The notes under the pieces were generated by a model. The model saw only the letters and a list, made by a program, of their open reading frames with translations, had not been told where the DNA came from and did no database searches. A stretch of 47,657 nt of DNA from a virus, in the IMG/VR virus record IMGVR_UViG_3300002835_000319, positions 1 to 47,657 of that record; one strand, 5' to 3'. The position numbers were made by a program, and so were the translations under genes. Of this stretch, positions 13,211-47,657 are shown piece by piece. How positions within the stretch are numbered: the first letter of the stretch is position 1; each line of letters starts with the position of its first letter.

Positions 13211-13374
13211 AAACATACAGGATAGATTACTGTTATACGTTTTGCGATGAAGATGATGGTAGAATCATCACATCCAAAGGTTACTGCCTTATAAAGGCTA
13301 AGAGCCAAGAACAAGCTATCAAAACATTTAACAAAAAATACAGGGGTGACCTTGTAGAAATTCAAGAAGTATGA
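13207..13374 (+). CDS. 55-aa unknown protein
   Basis: MKTYRIDYCYTFCDEDDGRI, then YCLIKAKSQEQAIKTFNKKY: a strand-helix pattern like small DUF-type RNA- or protein-binding modules. It overlaps both neighbours by 4 bp (ATGA at each end), so it is part of a coupled set. Confidence 0.6.
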   Translation: MKTYRIDYCYTFCDEDDGRIITSKGYCLIKAKSQEQAIKTFNKKYRGDLVEIQEV

Positions 13375-13550
13375 ATAAGAGAATACCAGAATTAAAACAG
13401 AAGCATATTGATACAATCTTTGTAGCAATAGCAGAAATACGCAGGGATCAAAAAGAAGGTAGAATTTCTACAGCTGATGTAGTAGAGATATTACAGAAGT
13501 ATTATGAGTACAGTGAAAAACTAATTCAACTGATAAAACAAGACGCATGA
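13371..13550 (+). CDS. 59-aa helical protein, paralogue of the next gene
   Basis: Contains RRDQKEGRISTADVVEILQK and YYEYSEKLIQLIKQD. These align without gaps to HIDHKEGKLSTRDVIDILNK and YYDFGDKMIELLKKE in the 13547 gene, so the two arose by tandem duplication. An HTH-like helix pair (ISTADVVEIL) could bind nucleic acid. The next start overlaps the stop by 4 bp. Confidence 0.65.
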   Translation: MNKRIPELKQKHIDTIFVAIAEIRRDQKEGRISTADVVEILQKYYEYSEKLIQLIKQDA

Positions 13551-15198: not shown

Positions 15199-15267
15199 AC
15201 CTGATTGATGTAATTGGTAGCATAATACTATTAAGTGTTTGTGCAGGTTCGAGTCCTGTATCAGGTT
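15199..15267 (+). tRNA. tRNA-like element 1, anomalous anticodon arm
   Basis: Acceptor ACCTGAT/ATCAGGT is a perfect 7 bp. The D arm is ATGT-AATTGGTA-GCAT, and the T arm GCAGG-TTCGAGT-CCTGT is canonical. Between them only 19 nt remain for the anticodon arm and variable loop. The best fold is AATAC-TATTAA-GTGTT with a 6-nt loop, so the anticodon cannot be read safely. No encoded CCA. Total 69 nt. It could be a degenerate tRNA or a deliberately altered one. Confidence 0.5.
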
Positions 15268-15282
15268 CTAAAAACATATACT

Positions 15283-37153: not shown

Positions 37154-37617
37154 ATATCATAGCTGCCATAGATAGAAACATGGTAATAGGCAACAACGGT
37201 AAACTACCATGGCATTTACCTGCAGACCTTAAACACTTCAAAGCACTTACCACAGACAATGTTGTCGTAATGGGCAGGAAGACTTTTGATTCTATAGGTA
37301 AACCTTTACCTAGGCGTACTAACATTGTACTTACAAGAGATAAGACTTTTAGACATGATGGTGTGCTTGTATGCTATAATCATAATGATATACTCACACT
37401 CAACAATAACATTTTTATTATTGGAGGTGGTGATATATATCAGTTGTTTATGCCACATGTACATCGACTATATATTACACACGTACAAACTGTAGTTAAA
37501 GGAGATGTGTATTTTCCTGCAATACCACAACATTTTAGTATTAAAGAGATACAATCTGTACCTAGTGACGAAGTGAATATGTACGATATGGATTTCTGTG
37601 TTTATGAAAAACCGTAA
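37147..37617 (+). CDS. folA: Dihydrofolate reductase
   Basis: 156 aa from ATG 37147 (MVNIIAAIDRNMVIGNNGKL). PWHLPADLKHFKALT holds the catalytic Asp, VVVMGRKTFDSIGKPL the NADPH-binding loop, and IFIIGGGDIYQLF the GG-x-x-x-Y motif. Full length for the family. Supplies tetrahydrofolate for thymidylate synthesis during replication. Confidence 0.95.
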   Translation: MVNIIAAIDRNMVIGNNGKLPWHLPADLKHFKALTTDNVVVMGRKTFDSIGKPLPRRTNIVLTRDKTFRHDGVLVCYNHNDILTLNNNIFIIGGGDIYQLFMPHVHRLYITHVQTVVKGDVYFPAIPQHFSIKEIQSVPSDEVNMYDMDFCVYEKP

Positions 37618-37710
37618 ACTGTATATACATATAATATGTTTAGGGTTATACTTGACCCTACTTTATGTATTAACGACAATCGTATTCTTAAACTTAATAA
37701 GCTAAAAATC

Positions 37711-37968
37711 ATGGACGTTGAAAAACAAAAAGTGTTTGACATTATCGAAAAAGTAAAGGTCATTATGGAAAACAACAGACCTCGTGATGGTAGGGGATAT
37801 ACCGAAGAGGAAATAAAATTTATTACCCAGACCAATGTGCCAAACTTTGACGAAGCTTTGTATAACAAACAGCTCCAGGTTGTTAACTTCACACAGATAG
37901 GTGCATATGCAGTCGCACATAGTTCTGAATTGGAAGCAGTACTTTACAATATGTTGTACAAAGCATGA
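37711..37968 (+). CDS. 85-aa unknown protein
   Basis: From ATG 37711 after an A-rich leader (an upstream start would add a poorly conserved-looking segment). Helical, RGYTEEEIKFITQTNVPNFD, suggestive of a small HTH. The stop overlaps the next start (ATGA). Confidence 0.6.
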   Translation: MDVEKQKVFDIIEKVKVIMENNRPRDGRGYTEEEIKFITQTNVPNFDEALYNKQLQVVNFTQIGAYAVAHSSELEAVLYNMLYKA

Positions 37969-38192
37969 TAAAACATCCTGTTTTTATTGAGTTTCAAACT
38001 ATGGGAGATATGCTTAAATTTAAAAAGCATATCGATGCTAATGAAGACCTTAAACATTACTTCGGGGGCAATACCTTACGTGAAATACAGTTTGAGTTTG
38101 ATACCCTTGAACAAGCACAAATGTTTGGTAAAGCTATAGAGGCAATATCAAATAAGAAGAAAGTAAAATTATCATTCAAAAGAGATGGGTAG
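37965..38192 (+). CDS. 75-aa unknown protein
   Basis: IEFQTMGDMLKFKKHIDANE and FEFDTLEQAQMFGKAIEAI repeat a F/I-x-F-x-T-x-x-x-x-x-F-K/G pattern, possibly two copies of one alpha-beta unit. The stop lies inside the following hairpin. Confidence 0.6.
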   Translation: MIKHPVFIEFQTMGDMLKFKKHIDANEDLKHYFGGNTLREIQFEFDTLEQAQMFGKAIEAISNKKKVKLSFKRDG

Positions 38193-38206
38193 TAATACTA
38201 CCCATC
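38184..38206 (+). terminator. Perfect 10-bp hairpin overlapping a stop codon
   Basis: GATGGGTAGT/ACTACCCATC, with only a weak T tail (TTATTTAATTTT). Confidence 0.6.
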
Positions 38207-38225
38207 TTATTTAATTTTCAACAAC

Positions 38226-38912
38226 ATGAAACATCCTAAACTGGCACATGAAGACTGGAAGTCTTGCCCAGCCTTTACATTAATACCTTCTATTATGCAA
38301 GGTTTGATACCTAACTCTTTCAGGCCTGCAGAACCTAGCTTGATATTCAGGGCTTTTGAAATGCCACCTCAAGACATTAAAGCTGTTATTGTAGGATTAA
38401 GCCCTTATCCAGGCAGTTATACCAGTGGTGAACCACATGCGTGTGGATATGCTTTTGCAATAGAAAACATTGATACACCAAAACATGCTTGGCCTGTAAG
38501 CTTACAGATGATTTGTGAAAGTATGAAAGACCTCTATGATGTCGATGATATATATAAGTATTTTGACCCAACCTTAAGTCTATGGAAAGATGCTGGTATA
38601 CTTTTACTTAACACTGCACTTACGACAATACCTTCAGATCCCAGGTCACACCTTAAACTATGGGAACCATTTACCATGAACTTATTGTCTTGGTTAAATA
38701 ATGAGTATCCAGGTATCGTGTATTACTTTATGGGCAGTGATGCTTCTAAGCTAAGTTCTTTGATATACCCTATGTGGAACCATGTCATCGTAAGCGAACA
38801 TCCATCAAGGGCTGCAAGGGAAAACAGGAAATTTAACCATAAGTTTAAAATATTCCAGGTAGCATACGAAGATAAATATGATTCTCCTCTAAGGCTAATA
38901 TTACCTTTCTAA
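38226..38912 (+). CDS. Uracil-DNA glycosylase-fold protein lacking the catalytic Asp
   Basis: 228 aa. Motifs of family-1 UDG appear in order: VGLSPYPGSY replaces GQDPYHG, ACGYAFA matches GLAFSV, LLLNTALTT matches LLLNTVLTV, MGSDASK matches WGSHAQK, and SEHPSRAARE matches HPSPLSAHRG. The water-activating Asp of GQDPYH is Ser here and the following His is Pro, so ordinary uracil excision may be lost or changed. Possible roles are a diverged glycosylase with another substrate or a DNA-binding replication cofactor. Confidence 0.8.
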   Translation: MKHPKLAHEDWKSCPAFTLIPSIMQGLIPNSFRPAEPSLIFRAFEMPPQDIKAVIVGLSPYPGSYTSGEPHACGYAFAIENIDTPKHAWPVSLQMICESMKDLYDVDDIYKYFDPTLSLWKDAGILLLNTALTTIPSDPRSHLKLWEPFTMNLLSWLNNEYPGIVYYFMGSDASKLSSLIYPMWNHVIVSEHPSRAARENRKFNHKFKIFQVAYEDKYDSPLRLILPF

Positions 38913-38949
38913 GCTATGGAGGCAAAATATTCAATCAATTTACATAGAT

Positions 38950-39075
38950 ATGTGGGCAAGTAACGTAGAGTTTAAGTCACTTAGTTTTTCCTATAAAATT
39001 TTACATGAAAGGAATACCTACAATGTAGTAACATACTACAACATGGACATATTATCATTGTTAAAACATATGTAA
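38950..39075 (+). CDS. Orphan member of the micro-ORF family
   Basis: 41 aa, MWASNVEFKSLSFSYK, then VTYYNMDILSLLKHM at the end. The LLKHM terminus encoded by TTAAAACATATG and the stop/start overlap (TAATG) with the next gene copy the array junction geometry, 11 kb away. No Cys at the usual site. Confidence 0.6.
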   Translation: MWASNVEFKSLSFSYKILHERNTYNVVTYYNMDILSLLKHM

Positions 39076-39524
39076 TGGACAAAGCTAAGATAGGTAAACG
39101 TAACCGTATTAATGGACACAACTTTGAAAGATATGTTAAGTCTGTGTTTATCAAACTAGGGTTTTTAAATACGGCAACGTCAAGGGCAGTATCTAAAGTA
39201 GCTGATGATAAAGGCATTGACTTAGTAAATACTGGTGACTTAGGTGTACAGTGTAAATACACTGTAACAAGACCTAACTACATTGAAATACTTAAGTCAA
39301 TGCCTTTAAACTTACTCAATGTTATATTCCATAAACAACCTAAAGGTAAGGTCTATGTAATTATGGAAGAACACGTATTTACAGAACTTTTAAAATGTTA
39401 TATCAATGAACGGGGAACAAAAGGCCAAACAGATCAGGCAATACTACTCTCACCCAGGGATAAGCCAGAGCGAGATAAAAAGACATCTGGCAACAGGGGT
39501 AGTAAAACAAACAAAGGAAACTAG
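39075..39524 (+). CDS. Holliday-junction resolvase-like PD-(D/E)XK nuclease
   Basis: 149 aa. RINGHNFERYVKSVF (active-site Glu), DDKGIDLVNTGDLGVQCKY (D...QxK) are the core of archaeal-type/phage Holliday resolvases and Vsr-like nucleases. The last 40 residues are polar and probably disordered, and that part overlaps the next gene. Confidence 0.75.
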   Translation: MDKAKIGKRNRINGHNFERYVKSVFIKLGFLNTATSRAVSKVADDKGIDLVNTGDLGVQCKYTVTRPNYIEILKSMPLNLLNVIFHKQPKGKVYVIMEEHVFTELLKCYINERGTKGQTDQAILLSPRDKPERDKKTSGNRGSKTNKGN

Positions 39525-40365
39525 TGCTCTATCTAAAGGTAAGGTATTTGATGTACTTACTTTGATACCAGAAGCATACAAGTATTTATTTGTTGACTGG
39601 GACAAACCATTTAACCTGCCAACAGGTAAAGTCAAAGACATTGTAGATAAGTTCTACAAGATTACACCAGAGACTAATTTGCTTACAGACAATAATGAAT
39701 TGCTTATACAACTTATTGAGGAGTTTGACTACTACAAAAACCTTAAACTACCATCAAGGATACATAGCTTAGTAGTTACCAAACATGGACAACAGTATCA
39801 CAACCACTTACAAGAAAAAGGCGATAGAGATTTAGTACCAGGTTCTTTGAAGAGTACATTGTATGGTCCAAGTCAAATGCTTAGGTCACATCTGTATGAA
39901 CAAGTGAAAGACTATCTAGAGATACATCCACAGCACTCTGTGTACTTTAATTACTTAGGCACTCAGTGTAAAGGTTTGTTAGACTTGTTAGTTGTTTATG
40001 CAGATAGGGTTGAAGTTAGAGATGTCAAATATACTGAGTTAAGTATCAATGACTATAATATTGAGCTTAGACGTAGAAGGACTGATATACAACTTAGCTA
40101 TTATAAATATGCTATTAAGCAACAGTACAAAGACATACCAGTACATTGCTATGTAGACATATACTCTAAACAAGATGATGCCTGTTTCTCCTTTAAGTTC
40201 TCAGACTTAGACTTAGAAATAGCCAGGTATGGTGCTGAACGTAGTATGGGTACTATAACTACTGCAGGTTTGGTAATACCTTGTTCTAGTAGGATAAAAG
40301 GATGGCATGAGTATTTTGAACCTGTAACAAGTGTGAGTACAGATTTAGACTCTATTTGGATGTAA
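39406..40365 (+). CDS. RecB/Cas4-type PD-(D/E)XK exonuclease-like protein
   Basis: 319 aa. SHPGISQSEIKRHLATG at the start and, around residue 190, GTQCKGLLDLLVVY followed by VEVRDVKYT (G-x-x-D ... D-x-K) and QLSYYKYAI (Q-x-x-x-Y). These are the motifs of RecB-family/lambda-exonuclease-like nucleases. It would make single-stranded ends for recombination or degrade host DNA. It overlaps the resolvase gene by 119 bp; if this is right, the two nucleases share coding DNA. Confidence 0.75.
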   Translation: MNGEQKAKQIRQYYSHPGISQSEIKRHLATGVVKQTKETSALSKGKVFDVLTLIPEAYKYLFVDWDKPFNLPTGKVKDIVDKFYKITPETNLLTDNNELLIQLIEEFDYYKNLKLPSRIHSLVVTKHGQQYHNHLQEKGDRDLVPGSLKSTLYGPSQMLRSHLYEQVKDYLEIHPQHSVYFNYLGTQCKGLLDLLVVYADRVEVRDVKYTELSINDYNIELRRRRTDIQLSYYKYAIKQQYKDIPVHCYVDIYSKQDDACFSFKFSDLDLEIARYGAERSMGTITTAGLVIPCSSRIKGWHEYFEPVTSVSTDLDSIWM

Positions 40366-40386
40366 CTTTTTAAATTATCATATACC

Positions 40387-41160
40387 ATGAAGCAAGTTAA
40401 TCTTGATGACTTGATGCAGTACAAAGCTACTGTACAAGGTGGAAACCAATTCTTAACATTACCTGGACCAGAAGCTATCCTTAGCCCTGTGTTTGCTAAG
40501 CTAGGCGGTAAGGTAAAACACTACAACTGTTATGTACAAGAACCTAACCGCAAAGCTGCCGATGTAAACAATGGCGAAGTTACTGCTGCCTACCAGTATG
40601 CTGACAGGGTACTTGTAGAAGCAGTACTTGATGATGATCTGCAAGTGTTTGGTACAGACAGGTATGAAACAGTTATTGGTATTATTTATGCCCATGACAT
40701 CAACAGACCTGTGATAAAAGCTTACTTAGGCTTTGAGAACCAAGCTTGTTTGAACCTGAGCGTGTTCAACCCTTTAGACATTACTGCTAAAGACTTTGCA
40801 GCAACAGACTTCAGTACTATCTATGACAACATTGATGTGTACTTGGCCAGTGTACAACAGCGCAAGTTACAACTACAAGAAGCTGTAAGGTTCTTGAGCG
40901 AAGAGAAGTTGAGCGGTGACAAACTGAAAGAAGTCATTGGTGATGTTGCCGTCAAAGCACACACCAGTATTGCCATGAAGACGCACTTTTCTGCGATGAT
41001 GGATCATGTGTTTAAATCTACAGGTAAGTATTACTCGCCACAAGGGGAACATACCAGGTATAACCTGTACCAAGCTTTTACGCATACCATTTCTAAAGAC
41101 AGGGAAGTAAGCCTGGCCAGACCTGATAAAGTTCTTGAAGCTTACAACTTCTTTAACTAA
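40387..41160 (+). CDS. Unknown 257-aa protein, DUF932-like at the C-terminus
   Basis: N-terminal half ADRVLVEAVLDDDLQVFG, helical middle (QQRKLQLQEAVRFLSEEKLS). EHTRYNLYQAFTHTIS recalls the conserved W-x-x-x-N-A-x-T region of DUF932 phage/plasmid proteins. High-expression codons. Overlap with next gene 1 bp. Function unknown. Confidence 0.7.
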   Translation: MKQVNLDDLMQYKATVQGGNQFLTLPGPEAILSPVFAKLGGKVKHYNCYVQEPNRKAADVNNGEVTAAYQYADRVLVEAVLDDDLQVFGTDRYETVIGIIYAHDINRPVIKAYLGFENQACLNLSVFNPLDITAKDFAATDFSTIYDNIDVYLASVQQRKLQLQEAVRFLSEEKLSGDKLKEVIGDVAVKAHTSIAMKTHFSAMMDHVFKSTGKYYSPQGEHTRYNLYQAFTHTISKDREVSLARPDKVLEAYNFFN

Positions 41161-41780
41161 TGCGCGTACAATTAGATAAGATCTATGTGAACCGTACAAG
41201 GATGTATTTGGCAAGGGCTATGCTTGCATATTTTGACAGGCAGTCTTTGTATAACGTGCAGATACTAAAACCTATTATGTGGGGCACATATGATCAACTC
41301 TACTTGGAAGCTAAAGGTATTAAAGAAGTACAGTATAAGTTGTTCTTACTTGCTGAAGTGAAGTATAAACCACAACGTACCGCACTTAAGGAACTACGTA
41401 CACACATGTATTATGAAGACGATTATCCTATGGATATCAAAAACACTAAATATGTGTTTATCGTATTCCAAATACCTTCAAATTTACATATGAGTTATAA
41501 CTCGTTTATGGAAGGTAGATTTTCAGAAATGTTTACGGTAAAAGAACTTGACAAGATGGGTATAAAAAAGTTTGAAGACAACGAACCTAACCCTGTCTAT
41601 GCAGTACTTACCAAGAAAAAACATCTGAAAGAAGTGTTCAGGCAGAGATTAGAAAAAGTCTTTGATGTAGAGATCAGTGAAGAAGACCTTGTTAATTCTG
41701 AACTGGACTCTTTCTTTGTACCTCCTACATACGAAGCTTTTAACGTTGACCATTATGGGCCAAAGATAAAAGAACAGTGA
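41160..41780 (+). CDS. Unknown 206-aa protein
   Basis: MRVQLDKIYVNRTRMYLARA start; LFLLAEVKYKPQRTALKELR and an acidic end. Paired with the previous gene by a 1-bp overlap and closed by a terminator. No family recognised. Confidence 0.7.
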   Translation: MRVQLDKIYVNRTRMYLARAMLAYFDRQSLYNVQILKPIMWGTYDQLYLEAKGIKEVQYKLFLLAEVKYKPQRTALKELRTHMYYEDDYPMDIKNTKYVFIVFQIPSNLHMSYNSFMEGRFSEMFTVKELDKMGIKKFEDNEPNPVYAVLTKKKHLKEVFRQRLEKVFDVEISEEDLVNSELDSFFVPPTYEAFNVDHYGPKIKEQ

Positions 41781-41794
41781 GTGTTTTATTTACG

Positions 41795-41825
41795 GTGGGG
41801 TAGCTTACGGGCTACCCTACTTTTT
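41795..41825 (+). terminator. Rho-independent terminator
   Basis: GTGGGGTAGC/GCTACCCTAC 10-bp stem (one G-U) with a TTTTT tail. Confidence 0.9.
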
Positions 41826-41837
41826 ACCTTAACGATT

Positions 41838-42710
41838 ATGAAACAAATAACAGTACTGAGGTCCCCAAGTAGGGGTACTAATTTTTATCGTATAGACAAC
41901 CCTATGCATTTTGTTAAGTCAGATGTCTTGATGCGCGAAGTATATCTCCCTGTAGAAAACTACATTAAAGTATTAACTGGAAGTTCTGCTTTGTTCGTGT
42001 CCATGCCTACGGATAAACATGCGTTGTGGTTGATTATGGCGGCAAGAGCTATGGACATACCTGTAATATGTGATGTCGATGATTTGTTGACAGCAGATTA
42101 TGGTGAAGCATATAAAGACCATTTAGACTGCCTGGACCTGGCAACGGTTATCATATGTGCCACTGAAGAATTACAAGATGTGTACATGCAGTACAATACA
42201 GTGTTGATAGAAAACTTTTTAGACCTTAAGTTTACGTCACAGAAACGTAAGTCTCTAAGACCTACTATAGTTGTACGTGGTTCTACAGCTAGAAAAGAAG
42301 ACTATGAACACTATCAGGATATGTTCGTAGAGATAGAACAACGCCTACAACCTAAGTGGTACTTCATGGGTTATACACCAACGTTTTTCAGACCTATACT
42401 TGATGAGGTCATACCTTTTTCAGAACCTATGAAGTTTTTCCATAAGTTGTGCGACATCAATCCACATTTTATCTTCCATCCTATTGTAGATACGCCTGTA
42501 GGTAGGTGTAAATCTAAAAGCGCATATTGGGAAGCAGCATTATGTAATGCACAACTTGTAACAACGGCAACATGGTGGAAAGGTGAAAACATTATTACCG
42601 ATGTAAAAGATATGGCATTGCCTGTAAAACCTGCTGTTGTAAACAAAGCACACAATAAAAAACAAATTGATAAATTTAAACAACTTATTTATGATTACAC
42701 TAGTGTATAA
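41838..42710 (+). CDS. Glycosyltransferase-like protein
   Basis: 290 aa from ATG 41838 after the terminator. IPVICDVDDLLTADYGEAYK (DxDD), ATEELQDVYMQYNTVLIEN and SAYWEAALCNAQLVTTA follow the GT-B pattern of phage family-1/4 transferases, where the DVDD stretch is typical and the last motif binds the nucleotide. Third glycosyltransferase of the window, far from the 8159-10373 cluster. Confidence 0.7.
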   Translation: MKQITVLRSPSRGTNFYRIDNPMHFVKSDVLMREVYLPVENYIKVLTGSSALFVSMPTDKHALWLIMAARAMDIPVICDVDDLLTADYGEAYKDHLDCLDLATVIICATEELQDVYMQYNTVLIENFLDLKFTSQKRKSLRPTIVVRGSTARKEDYEHYQDMFVEIEQRLQPKWYFMGYTPTFFRPILDEVIPFSEPMKFFHKLCDINPHFIFHPIVDTPVGRCKSKSAYWEAALCNAQLVTTATWWKGENIITDVKDMALPVKPAVVNKAHNKKQIDKFKQLIYDYTSV

Positions 42711-43116
42711 TTGGATGCAAACATTTCTGATACCTACCAACAGGAATACAGAAACAGTAGACCTCTATTCCAGACTCATCGAGGAAGAACATCAAGAAAC
42801 CAATGATGAGTTTAGTAGAGGTAGAAGTACTGAAGAACTCAAGGAATGTGTAGACTTGTTATGGGTCACTATTGCTAAAGTACTTTCATTAGGGTATACA
42901 CCTGAAGAAATAACTAAAGCACTAGAAGCTGTATATGAAAGCAACATGTCCAAGTACAGTAACACCAAAGAAGAGTTGGAAAAGTATATTACCCATCACA
43001 GTTTGTTATCACACAGTATCCAGAAAATAGGTGAAGGCAAATATGTATTGTTAAATCAAAATGGTAAAATTCAAAAAGGACCTAACTATCATGCAGCAAA
43101 AATCGATCTTAAGTAA
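42691..43116 (+). CDS. MazG-like nucleotide pyrophosphohydrolase
   Basis: 141 aa from ATG 42691 (ATG 42715 is an alternative). SRLIEEEHQETNDEF and ELKECVDLLWVTIAKVL give the E-x-x-E ... E-x-x-D metal site of all-alpha NTP pyrophosphohydrolases. ESNMSKYSN matches the N-x-S/M-K end. It would hydrolyse NTPs/dNTPs or lower (p)ppGpp-type signals. Confidence 0.8.
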   Translation: MITLVYNWMQTFLIPTNRNTETVDLYSRLIEEEHQETNDEFSRGRSTEELKECVDLLWVTIAKVLSLGYTPEEITKALEAVYESNMSKYSNTKEELEKYITHHSLLSHSIQKIGEGKYVLLNQNGKIQKGPNYHAAKIDLK

Positions 43117-43477
43117 TGTCTTACAGCTTATCTTGATGATAGGCGCTATCTACTTGTTTTCAAAATTTGCTTGTAGCAAAGAAGAAACAACCAGTGTAAA
43201 AGAAGAGAAAGTACAAAGTACCAATGATGCTTATGATTATGACTATTCCGTACACAAAGCTGAACGTATCTCGATTAGTGAACAGATATGTAGGAACCAT
43301 AGTAAAACACCTGAAGAACACTTTATGTGCGTACCTATGGTGCAAAGTACGGTGTCTTTTAAACTTGATTCGCTTTATACCGTGTTGAAAACACGTGTGG
43401 GCAATAAAGAAATTACACCGAGACAAGCTGGTAGTATCACTAATGATTATGTAAAAAGTTTATTGTACAAAAACTAA
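43091..43477 (+). CDS. Exported or lipoprotein-like 128-aa protein
   Basis: From ATG 43091, MQQKSILSNVLQLILMIGAI with YLFSKFACSKEE: hydrophobic segment, then a Cys that could be lipidated (imperfect lipobox KFAC). Polar remainder with two more Cys (QICRNHS, FMCVPM). Possibly an outer-membrane or periplasmic lysis factor such as an o-spanin, judged on topology only. Confidence 0.6.
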   Translation: MQQKSILSNVLQLILMIGAIYLFSKFACSKEETTSVKEEKVQSTNDAYDYDYSVHKAERISISEQICRNHSKTPEEHFMCVPMVQSTVSFKLDSLYTVLKTRVGNKEITPRQAGSITNDYVKSLLYKN

Positions 43478-43482
43478 TAACT

Positions 43483-43563
43483 ATGTTACCTTTCTTTATA
43501 GGTTATTTCTTCTTAGCATGTTTTATTATTTATTTATTCAAAAAATTAATAGACGATAAATGA
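43483..43563 (+). CDS. 26-aa single-pass membrane peptide
   Basis: MLPFFIGYFFLACFIIYLFK followed by KLIDDK; nearly all hydrophobic with a charged tail. The stop overlaps the 43560 start (ATGA). May regulate or escort the neighbouring membrane proteins. Confidence 0.6.
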   Translation: MLPFFIGYFFLACFIIYLFKKLIDDK

Positions 43564-44312
43564 CACAGTATGTACCAATGATCATTGCTGCTTTAGGTAT
43601 AGCAATGATCTTTATGATATTCAAATCTAAGTCTAAAGGCACAGATATTATTGATGCTATCCGCGATAGAAAAATAGTGCTTCAAGAAGCACTACTCGTT
43701 TTCTTAGCTGTCCTTGAAGGTTTGATAGCAGCAGACGTGGCTTTTTCAGAAAACATGAACTACTGGGTAAGACTCAGTGCGCACATGGCCATAGCTGCAA
43801 TATCTGTTATCTTTGGCTCTACATTGTACAGGCAATTTCAAGAACTATATGCTTCTATAAAACTTAAGCAAAGTTTTTGGATGGTGTTTAAAGAACTTAC
43901 CGATGTCTTCATGTCTGCTATGTGGACGGTGCTACCAGCATTTGCTAATACTTGGTTTATCGTTATGGGTAGGAAAACACAAGCACAAGCTGTTAATTTC
44001 CTCACTGCATTATTTAATTTTAAGTTTACAGATGCATTGTTAGCTTTAAGTGACGGCACTACTTTTATGTCTATGTTTATCCTTAGTGCTCATGTATTTC
44101 TACCTATATATTTAGGTTTGTTTGCACAAGTAAACGAGAGTGTAGATAACGTTCTTAAACCTAAAGTTGACAATACTAAAGTAGAAATAACACCAGCACA
44201 AACAAAACCTGCAGTGGAAAATGAAGATGACGATGATAATGAAGTAGAAGAAGAAGACATAAAAAAGAACACGGGCACTATCAGGAGCATGAGGCAGATT
44301 TTAAAGAGATAG
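43560..44312 (+). CDS. Multi-pass membrane protein with acidic tail; frameshift upstream partner
   Basis: 250 aa. Hydrophobic segments lie at about 4-20, 42-60, 70-88, 110-132 and 163-186, so ~5 membrane passes. The cytoplasmic-looking end is very acidic (ENEDDDDNEVEEED). Codons ATA AAA AAG at 44259-44267 place the heptamer A AAA AAG in the correct phase for -1 slippage. Without slippage it ends IRSMRQILKR at the TAG inside the stimulatory stem. Unknown function. Confidence 0.8.
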   Translation: MTQYVPMIIAALGIAMIFMIFKSKSKGTDIIDAIRDRKIVLQEALLVFLAVLEGLIAADVAFSENMNYWVRLSAHMAIAAISVIFGSTLYRQFQELYASIKLKQSFWMVFKELTDVFMSAMWTVLPAFANTWFIVMGRKTQAQAVNFLTALFNFKFTDALLALSDGTTFMSMFILSAHVFLPIYLGLFAQVNESVDNVLKPKVDNTKVEITPAQTKPAVENEDDDDNEVEEEDIKKNTGTIRSMRQILKR

Positions 44313-44318
44313 ATGCCC
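44261..44318 (+). promoter_or_regulatory. Candidate programmed -1 ribosomal frameshift signal
   Basis: Slippery A AAA AAG at 44261-44267 in 0-frame phase, 5-nt spacer, then a stem GGGCACTATC (44273-44282) pairing with GATAG-A-TGCCC (44308-44318), 10 bp with one bulged A. The 0-frame stop TAG (44310-44312) lies in the 3' arm. The -1 frame has a stop at 44240 and is then open to 44602. Confidence 0.7.
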
Positions 44319-44602
44319 TTAAAGAAATAGAGCCTCGTATACCGGACTTTAAGAATACACTTAACTACTGTACGAAACATATGTTTCAAGACTTAACTTT
44401 ACACGAAAGATTGTTGAAAATAAACAAATGGCTAAGTAAAAACTTTACTAATAGATCTGAAGTTTTAACGAAGGCTGTTGAAGTATGTTTACGTGCAAGA
44501 GATGCTGCTGAAAAAGCGCAAAGCGAAAGATTTAAAAACATAAAATCTAGCGAAGAAAAAGCTATGATTGCACATATAGAAAAACTTATTGAAAATGCAT
44601 AA
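44267..44602 (+). CDS. -1 frame extension; fused to the membrane protein by frameshift, or separate from ATG 44381
   Basis: 111 aa in -1 frame after the slippery site, beginning EHGHYQEHEADFKEIDALKE; the ATG at 44381 (MFQDLTLHERLLKINKWL) lies 38 codons in. The 38 upstream codons have normal charged-helical composition and no start codon, so they are explained only by frameshifting. A fusion would be 347 aa: membrane domain plus a charged helical domain (LRARDAAEKAQSERFKNIKS). Internal initiation may make the short form too. Confidence 0.65.
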   Translation, partial: EHGHYQEHEADFKEIDALKEIEPRIPDFKNTLNYCTKHMFQDLTLHERLLKINKWLSKNFTNRSEVLTKAVEVCLRARDAAEKAQSERFKNIKSSEEKAMIAHIEKLIENA

Positions 44603-44972
44603 GTATATCTTACATGTGTCTATGTTTATAAAAATAAGATATCAGTTTTGGCTCTACGATAATACTTTTCCTGAACTAATTTTATTAGAAACTGGTCATG
44701 ATCCTGAAAGGTATTATAAAATAAAACACGATTTATCACAAACAGAGTATGATGAACGAGTTAGATACGTAGAGCCAATACCAGGTATGTTTATTGAAGG
44801 CGTTGATGCTAGTAAGCTGGCAAGATCTGTTTTACTCAAGCTAGATCTCCCTGAAGAAGAAGCCGAGGAGATATTTACAGACAACTCTCTCTTTGAATTA
44901 AATGAGTTTTATTCTATTCTTAACAATTTAATCGATAAACTATGGCAGATCAAAAAGACCATCAAATCATAG
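44595..44972 (+). CDS. 125-aa unknown protein
   Basis: From ATG 44595, overlapping the previous stop by 8 nt. MHKYILHVSMFIKIRYQFWL, ETGHDPERYYKIKHDLS, then an acidic LDLPEEEAEEIFTDN. Next gene overlaps by 31 bp. No family recognised. Confidence 0.6.
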   Translation: MHKYILHVSMFIKIRYQFWLYDNTFPELILLETGHDPERYYKIKHDLSQTEYDERVRYVEPIPGMFIEGVDASKLARSVLLKLDLPEEEAEEIFTDNSLFELNEFYSILNNLIDKLWQIKKTIKS

Positions 44973-45217
44973 ATGTGTTATATGCACATGTAGAAGCTCG
45001 TTCACAAATAAAAGAGTTACTACAGCTTTTAGAACAGGCTAAAACCAATGTTGCTGGACTGGACAAAACTATTCTTCAGTTTATGTCTGACAATAAAAAA
45101 GACAAGATGGCAGTATACCTTGAAGGTACTAATACTATTGTAGTGTATTACCTTGAGAACTACAAAGCAGAAGGTCCTTTGTTACGCATGGAGGGACCTA
45201 TCCCTATGCTTAGTTAA
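44942..45217 (+). CDS. 91-aa helical protein
   Basis: MADQKDHQIIDVLYAHVEAR, then IKELLQLLEQAKTNVAGLDK (coiled coil) and a beta end. The last rightward gene; its stop is 1 bp from the stop of the convergent virion gene, with no visible terminator between. Confidence 0.65.
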   Translation: MADQKDHQIIDVLYAHVEARSQIKELLQLLEQAKTNVAGLDKTILQFMSDNKKDKMAVYLEGTNTIVVYYLENYKAEGPLLRMEGPIPMLS

Positions 45218-45218
45218 G

Positions 45219-47657
45219 TTACCTTGTTGCAGACTTATCTGATTCCAGTACATCAAATGTCTTACGGATATAGTATATACCAGGGATCAATGATACGGTA
45301 TAATGGAACTTACCCGCTTTCTCATCTCCTTTGTTAGCACCAAAGGGTATGGGGAAGCGGGCATCACCTTCACCAAAGAACACATCACCAGTCTCATCAA
45401 GAGTGTTACCTACTAACTTACGTGCTTGTGTAAACAATCCTATCAGAGGTATAGGGTTGGCAAACAACTTTTCGTATTCCATAGGATCATAAGTAAACGA
45501 CATTTCGGTTTTAGTACGGTTAAGTACCTGGAACATTTTATGCGTCAACCACATCTCTGCATATAGTTTCTCACCATCATCATCGTAATCAGATCCTAGT
45601 AAAAATATCATAGCAGTAAGTACCAGAAGTATTTCTATCTCACCAAGCATAGCTTTGATCTGACCTTTCTTCATTTCCAAGAATTGTTCATAGGTAGGGA
45701 ACATACCTTCCATTACTGGTGAGTTAGCATACTTCCTTTGAAAAGCAGCATACTGTGCCCTGGCTTTTTTATCATCAAACTTGTACTCATTACCTAACAT
45801 CCTACCTATGGTACCATAAGTAAGTAAGTCTTTGGTAACAAACTTTAATGAGTTACCTAGTGTCTCAAGCCAGAACATACCAGTCTTGATATCTTGCTCA
45901 CTACTTACCTCATCCCAGAACACCCTATACCTACCTTGTTCTGCAGTGTCAAGTACATTGTTGTACTTAAGACTACCAAACCTTTCCCTTACCACACCAG
46001 GCATCCAGGATTTAAACTGCATCATCAACCTGCCATAGATAGTTGTCTGCCAAAATGCAATCTCTTCTGAAGACATAGTACCTTTTATCCTACGTTGTCC
46101 AGCTCTTACCTTTTGTTGAAACTGTCTGGTAATGCGTAAGATGACATCATTATCACTAATCCCTTCAAAACTAAGTTCCCCATTCTCATTAATAGTAATC
46201 ATGTCACGTAATGGTTTACTACCTTCTGGTAAGTTAGCTAGCCTACGCACATTACCATTGCTATCTATACCATAGTTCATAGCCATAGCATTAGCTATGT
46301 GGTTATCTATCCTCTCATCACCATAACTATATGGTCTCATTAACAACCTCTGATTGATATACTGTTGTGCTGTAGAACTGTACAGGTTATCTTTTAAAAT
46401 ATTACCACCAGCTCTGTTAGTAACTACATCTCTGAGCATATCTTCACCATGTATACCAAAGTAATACCCTATACCATGGTATCTTTTACTATCTGTAGCT
46501 TGTAACTTCAGTGAGTCATTCCACTGATTGATATTAAATATCTGTCCTTTAGTAGCTTCTAACCTAGTATTCAACTGTGCTGATACATAACTAGCTGTTG
46601 CTGGTATAATACCTAAACCTAGTGTGCGTATAGAAAAGAAGTTTTGTAACTTGCTGATGATGTAGTTAAACTTTTCACCACCAATACTACTATCCATTTG
46701 TATACCATATAGGTGATAGTTAGTAAGTGCATTAAACACCCTATCTGTCATACTACCACCTACAGTCTTATCTTTAAGTGCTAAGTTATCTAGTGTTTCA
46801 AATGTCTTAGTACCCCAACCTTTCTTTTCATACTCAACAGTCTTTAACATATCCTTGATAGCTAGTATTTGACTTTCTATTTCAGACATGTACTTGTAGT
46901 TAAGTGCCATCTTAGCAAATAACCTGGTAGATGCACCTATATCCATACTTAGTTCAGCAGTAGTAATCTTGCCATCAGCATCTCTAAATGGATTGGTAAA
47001 GAATATAGGTACTTTAACCTCACCTTCAACATCAATATTCTGTTGACCAAACATGGTCTCATCTTCACGAATACTAAATGTTTTCTTGATATCCCCTAGG
47101 GCTGAATACAAGTCACTACGCTGTGCTTTCTCAACAATATCAGCACGTACTATAGGATAAAATAACTGTGAGTTAACAGCATCAAAACCTACCAGTTGTT
47201 GAAATCTGGAATTAAACTCCATCATCTTATCATAATATGCGCTAAGACTAGGGTTAGATTCTATTACACTATACTGTTCTGACTTATACCTCTGTAGTGT
47301 TTCTGGTTTAAGCTCTAACCAACTGTTACTAGCTTTTAACCAAGCTGAAGGGTGATTAGGTTTTCCAGTAACTTTATTAAGACTTAAGTCCCACTGACTT
47401 TCCCACCACTTCATAGCCTTATCTACACGCTCACCTTGATTAGGATACCTTTCCTTTAACGTAGCTTCATATTCTTTCTTTGACCTGGCATACCATCTCT
47501 GATATGTCTCACCATTTAAGTTCTTATCCCTTACCTTATAGGCATTGACCATGAAGTCTACATCTTTATTTTCCCTAGCTTCTTTCTTCTCTTCGTAAAA
47601 TGTACTGGACACTTTAGAATAGTACCTACCTGTTTTCTTGTTTATTAAGTATTTGTG
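45219..47657 (-). CDS. Large virion-type protein, C-terminal part (start outside the window)
   Basis: At least 812 codons, open to the right edge. The stretch upstream of the GTG at 47612 (HKYLINKKTGRYYSK) is in frame and stop-free, so the start lies beyond. A hydrophobic helix ILLVLTAMIFLLG lies near the end. FWQTTIYGRLMMQFKSWMPG and VRERFGSLKYN, with VRAGQRRIKGTMSSEE before, resemble the C-termini of giant internal or polyvalent virion proteins of large Bacteroidota phages. It transcribes leftward, toward the early region. Probably ejected with DNA; this is inference from size, position and composition. Confidence 0.7.
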   Translation of the reverse strand, partial: HKYLINKKTGRYYSKVSSTFYEEKKEARENKDVDFMVNAYKVRDKNLNGETYQRWYARSKKEYEATLKERYPNQGERVDKAMKWWESQWDLSLNKVTGKPNHPSAWLKASNSWLELKPETLQRYKSEQYSVIESNPSLSAYYDKMMEFNSRFQQLVGFDAVNSQLFYPIVRADIVEKAQRSDLYSALGDIKKTFSIREDETMFGQQNIDVEGEVKVPIFFTNPFRDADGKITTAELSMDIGASTRLFAKMALNYKYMSEIESQILAIKDMLKTVEYEKKGWGTKTFETLDNLALKDKTVGGSMTDRVFNALTNYHLYGIQMDSSIGGEKFNYIISKLQNFFSIRTLGLGIIPATASYVSAQLNTRLEATKGQIFNINQWNDSLKLQATDSKRYHGIGYYFGIHGEDMLRDVVTNRAGGNILKDNLYSSTAQQYINQRLLMRPYSYGDERIDNHIANAMAMNYGIDSNGNVRRLANLPEGSKPLRDMITINENGELSFEGISDNDVILRITRQFQQKVRAGQRRIKGTMSSEEIAFWQTTIYGRLMMQFKSWMPGVVRERFGSLKYNNVLDTAEQGRYRVFWDEVSSEQDIKTGMFWLETLGNSLKFVTKDLLTYGTIGRMLGNEYKFDDKKARAQYAAFQRKYANSPVMEGMFPTYEQFLEMKKGQIKAMLGEIEILLVLTAMIFLLGSDYDDDGEKLYAEMWLTHKMFQVLNRTKTEMSFTYDPMEYEKLFANPIPLIGLFTQARKLVGNTLDETGDVFFGEGDARFPIPFGANKGDEKAGKFHYTVSLIPGIYYIRKTFDVLESDKSATR

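Follow-up and report, generated by a model that had tools for sequence, protein, structure and literature searches.

A candidate pseudoknot-stimulated −1 ribosomal frameshift in a membrane protein gene of a crAss-like phage

The locus and its phage

The window, meaning the whole stretch of DNA analysed here, comprises the 47,657 bases of an IMG/VR virus record. Its PolB, helicases, toprim primase, Sak4-like gene and two further conserved proteins, o319 (39406-40365) and o206 (41160-41780), have counterparts in crAss-like records and in Flavobacterium phage FpV4, in a shared order and at roughly 22-37% identity. The shared replication genes place the phage among the crAss-like phages (Crassvirales and relatives), and the host is probably a member of the Bacteroidota. 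The lineage is an isolated one, and its nearest relatives beyond near-identical contigs show 27% identity in the primase and about 36% in the helicase.

The gene of interest follows the replication genes, a gene for a conserved crAss-like protein and one that is MazG-like. Its near upstream neighbour, 43061-43477, encodes a small protein with a hydrophobic N-terminal stretch, which overlaps the MazG-like gene and for which no homologs were found. On the other side, 45219-47612 on the minus strand encodes a protein of 797 aa without family matches; its relatives, at 24-27% identity, are found on other IMG/VR contigs with the neighbour genes arranged differently. Elsewhere in the window ARAGORN calls one tRNA-like gene, at 15199-15268, whose anticodon is abnormal in having two bases (tt). 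The features of the gene itself are as follows.

43560-44312, + strand: 0-frame ORF from ATG 43560 to TAG, a multi-pass membrane protein of 250 aa
44261-44267, + strand: slippery heptamer A_AAA_AAG in 0-frame phase, counted from ATG 43560 (direct reading)
44267-44602, + strand: −1 frame extension of 111 residues plus stop, its first 38 codons startless
44268-44272, + strand: 5-nt spacer between heptamer and stem 1 (direct reading)
44273-44318, + strand: stem 1, pairing 44273-44277 with 44314-44318 and 44278-44282 with 44308-44312, with a bulged A44313 (predicted fold)
44289-44338, + strand: stem 2 of the proposed pseudoknot, 44289-44295 with 44332-44338 (complementarity)
44300-44306, + strand: second in-phase heptamer, T_TTA_AAG, directly before the 0-frame stop and within pseudoknot loop L2
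44310-44312, + strand: 0-frame stop TAG, in the 3' arm of stem 1 (direct reading)

The membrane protein and its extension

The 0-frame protein has about 4-5 hydrophobic helices and an acidic C-terminal tail (14 D/E among the last 40 residues preceding the site), and it terminates in NTGTIRSMRQILKR. Its charge distribution suggests that the C-terminus is cytoplasmic. The predicted junction peptide of the −1 fusion contains KKEHGHYQEHEADFK, with K-K-E-H-G-H-Y as the junction residues. The 111-aa extension is predicted, with low confidence, to be all-helical; AlphaFold2, run on both halves with no alignment, returned helices only at a pLDDT of 48-49, and Foldseek, comparing the two models with the PDB, found nothing at E 0.001 or below. 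Sequence searches of Pfam, PHROGs, NCBIfam and the PDB produced no meaningful match. Identity with the tail assembly chaperone G/GT was considered and rejected: the gene falls in no PHROG, Pfam or NCBIfam family, and it shows neither homology to these chaperones nor a position by tape measure and major tail genes. crAss-like phages are short-tailed.

Does either half of this gene occur elsewhere? Peptide-pattern scans of IMG/VR with the two parts, membrane and −1, and with their fusion match nothing except one twin contig, described below. No homolog was found by tblastn of phage records with the same three queries, in GTDB genome contigs (membrane part or −1 part), or in about 95 other crAss-like records searched whole (either half). 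An empty answer from this whole-record search, run without a positive control, shows little, so the absence of homologs is not proof. Relatives reached through the neighbour gene at 45219-47612, the primase and the DnaB-like helicase comprise many crAss-like loci, 23-37% identical; a phmmer search of 6,683 open frames in the relatives' loci found no homolog, and in the stretch past o206 none of the crAss-like loci carries an equivalent gene.

The slippery site and the two frames

How would a ribosome pass from the membrane protein into the extension? An earlier note on this DNA had pointed to an A AAA AAG in 0-frame phase, and direct reading finds it at 44261-44267. The site codons are GAC ATA AAA AAG AAC, 44261 is the third base of ATA and the heptamer is read A_AAA_AAG, an X_XXY_YYZ motif in phase with the upstream ORF as programmed −1 frameshift signals have it. 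There are six in-phase A_AAA_AAG in the ORFs used, and solely the one at 44261-44267 is close to the end of its ORF. No clear Shine-Dalgarno-like enhancer was seen upstream of the heptamer. The T_TTA_AAG at 44300-44306, which that note had overlooked, opens onto the same −1 frame; it is possibly a back-up or secondary slip site, or it may be there by chance.

The −1 frame behaves as that note had described. TGA at 44240-44242 closes it upstream, and from 44243 it stays open until the stop at 44600-44602. The 38 codons that follow the site lack a start (the earliest ATG, GTG or TTG is ATG 44381), and the 0-frame stop does fall inside the downstream stem. The note's wording, that the signal fuses a membrane protein to the next ORF, needs amendment. 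The two frames are indeed joined; the downstream frame has no start of its own and is not an independent ORF, and the claim is therefore better put as adding 111 residues to a minor isoform. Recoding of TAG was set aside as needless because all three standard stops are in use in the window (25 TAA, 12 TGA and 5 TAG).

Codon usage was scored by a log-odds model for which 42 of the window's ORFs served as the training set. The earlier note had called the 38 startless codons (44267-44380) normal in composition, and their score of 13.5 is coding-like: genuine in-frame segments of equal length score 10.8 on average (sd 4.1), and not one of 554 off-frame segments gets as high. A −1 frame that runs open through the site and is coding though it has no start of its own is a further mark of programmed frameshifting. 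When the switch point is left free, the best one (score 33.8) lies at 44261-44264, inside the heptamer, and points as far as about 44288 fall short of it by no more than about 2 units. Use of the 0 frame to its stop scores 25.6, which is 8 units worse. These scores exclude a chance open frame and make a start at ATG 44381 unlikely. Codon usage by itself cannot separate a programmed from an accidental frameshift.

A candidate pseudoknot downstream

The stem announced by the earlier note, 10 bp with one bulge and 5 nt 3' of the heptamer, is present, and folded alone it reaches −12.8 kcal/mol (z −2.1 to −2.6). What that note had missed is that the loop of stem 1 could pair with 44332-44338, and a two-stem pseudoknot is proposed from this complementarity. 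Stem 2 would join AUGAGGC (44289-44295) to GCCUCGU (44332-44338) in 7 bp, one of them G-U, leaving loops L1, L2 and L3 of 6, 12 and 13 nt; an L2 of 12 nt is long compared with classical H-type pseudoknots. Nested folding of the longer region is unremarkable (z −0.5 to −1.1) because stems 1 and 2 compete in longer folds. Different nested foldings recover either stem 1 or stem 2, and both are compatible as a pseudoknot.

Could such pairing arise by chance? Pseudoknots were scored as summed stem stacking energy with spacers of 3-9 nt, a simple in-house scheme rather than a full pseudoknot energy model. On this scale the two stems at the 44261 site, correctly spaced, together reach −28.1 kcal/mol of stacking. 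Among the window's 10,296 coding positions 8 do as well (4 of 2,958 when G+C is matched); so do 2 of 5,000 dinucleotide shuffles, and none of 5,000 synonymous randomisations that preserve the −1 protein does. Given stem 1, the quality of stem 2 is equalled in 33 of 20,000 shuffles. By the same score, none of the five remaining in-phase A_AAA_AAG in the window is followed by a structure like it. An Rfam search returned nothing relevant. The complementarity of both stems is thus non-random, and the modelled structure, beyond what chance gives, sits within the 5-8 nt at which a stimulator is expected.

Programmed shift or accident?

A programmed −1 ribosomal frameshift, as the earlier note had proposed, is the best explanation of these observations and one that we hold with good confidence. 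Three independent lines agree with it: the frame switch falls at the heptamer, the predicted structure downstream is very unlikely to be a chance one, and the site is retained in a second, non-identical contig. This twin, IMGVR_UViG_3300049595_003262, differs from the window by 4 mismatches in 20 kb and is identical to it over 37560-47657, with the site unchanged. It is the only contig besides the window in which the locus was found, and it may derive from a related sample.

The alternative that survives best, with a small chance of being right, is an accidental indel. The true or ancestral gene would then be a single ORF of 347 codons from which one base was lost in the A6 run, through sequencing, assembly or a real recent mutation, and nothing would be programmed. 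A homopolymer is the typical place for such errors, and the codon-usage evidence fits this account equally well. How often do accidents of this kind imitate a frameshift signal? The window and related loci (160 sequences, 2.2 Mb) were scanned for an in-phase heptamer followed by 70 or more codons of −1 extension with no upstream start in that frame. More than 12 startless codons occurred in two independent cases only, the window (with its twin contig) and a relative, L033, whose startless −1 extension lies at 13341-13380 and whose apparent −1 frameshift at AAAAAAG spans L033:13317-13778. The L033 gene, a conserved crAss-like one, is a single uninterrupted ORF in FpV4 (L004 21361-22623, 74% identity) and in others, so what resembles a programmed frameshift in L033 is accidental: either an indel from sequencing or assembly, or a broken gene, in an A-rich stretch. 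Look-alikes of this sort exist, and the window's case therefore has to be told apart from them. Two observations do so: the A6 site agrees in two non-identical contigs, and an indel leaves unexplained a pseudoknot at the right spacing (8/10,296; 0/5,000), whereas L033 has a stem score of −10.9 and no stable hairpin. A search for a heptamer with a startless coding extension alone thus also catches sequencing accidents, and the downstream pseudoknot score, which told the two cases apart, is usable as a filter.

A second alternative, very unlikely in our estimate, is that two separate proteins are made, the downstream frame being translated independently, either from ATG 44381, which would give 73 aa, or through stop-start coupling at an ATA that overlaps the TAG (ATA-TAG, 44309-44312). 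That ATG and the overlapping ATA are both present, and coupling is frequent among phage genes. However, the −1 frame is coding well upstream of ATG 44381 (24 codons at 44309-44380 score +7.0) and even ahead of the 0-frame stop, where the 14 codons at 44267-44308 score +6.5 and the 0 frame −1.3; translation very rarely starts at ATA, and upstream in the −1 frame there is no ATG, GTG or TTG. Least probable of all is transcriptional slippage on the A6 run, in which a share of the mRNAs gains a base and the frames are joined into the same fusion: A runs are its substrate, but in bacteria they are longer (more than 7 A; PMC3711429), and slippage requires neither the in-phase heptamer nor the downstream structure that occur here.

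A model for the expression of two isoforms

We return to programmed frameshifting as the preferred reading. This crAss-like phage likely produces two forms of one multi-pass membrane protein in a constant proportion, by means of a −1 frameshift that a pseudoknot stimulates. The majority of ribosomes would stay in the 0 frame and stop at TAG 44310, yielding the 250-aa membrane protein. A minority would stall at the pseudoknot 5 nt downstream with AAA in the P site and AAG in the A site, both tRNA-Lys would slip one base back to re-pair on AAA AAA, and the shifted ribosomes would run to 44602. Their 347-aa product would carry the same membrane part followed by the 111-aa helical C-terminal domain, probably on the cytoplasmic side, and one mRNA would thereby supply both forms. 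What could be the function of the longer one? By analogy with other programmed frameshifts, the simplest role would be that a minor share of the subunits of a membrane complex bears an extra domain.

If true, this would take frameshifting beyond the structural, transposase and replication genes from which most known phage and bacterial examples come. The phage's host is probably one of the Bacteroidota, in which enhancers of the internal Shine-Dalgarno type should be weak, and the frameshift would there depend on RNA structure. If real, the signal offers a compact, testable probe of how the ribosomes of this likely host respond to a pseudoknot. Standard phage gene calling drops such extensions, so a whole domain of the protein is invisible in the annotation. 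We found no account of ribosomal frameshifting for crAss-like phages in the literature searched, subscription journals being mostly outside it.

Comparison with known frameshift systems

In E. coli, A_AAA_AAG with stimulators of this kind ranks among the three −1 motifs of highest efficiency, and −1 stimulators mostly begin 5-8 nt downstream (PMC4066793). E. coli dnaX likewise combines A_AAA_AAG with a downstream stem-loop; it differs in having an upstream Shine-Dalgarno-like enhancer and a shorter shifted product (PMC3711429), whereas here the product is longer and no such enhancer is clear. The OrfA/OrfAB genes of the IS3 family have an A-rich heptamer, a hairpin or pseudoknot stimulator and a longer fusion, as in the window (PMC4066793), although they encode a transposase and not a phage membrane protein with an H-type layout and a 12-nt L2. 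By analogy, the window's signal would work as it does in dnaX and IS3-family elements.

The tail assembly chaperones G/GT of long-tailed phages also shift −1 near the end of the first ORF to make a minor C-terminal extension (PMC5009743), but the gene and its neighbourhood differ from those described here, and certain tailed-phage −1 frameshifts apparently need no stimulatory signal (PMC5009743). A −1 frameshift in a bacterial membrane-protein gene is known from E. coli copA, where the shifted product is a short putative chaperone of 70 aa (PMC5009743); in the window the shift would lengthen the protein. Set against these systems, the case presented here is a known type of expression signal in an unusual gene.
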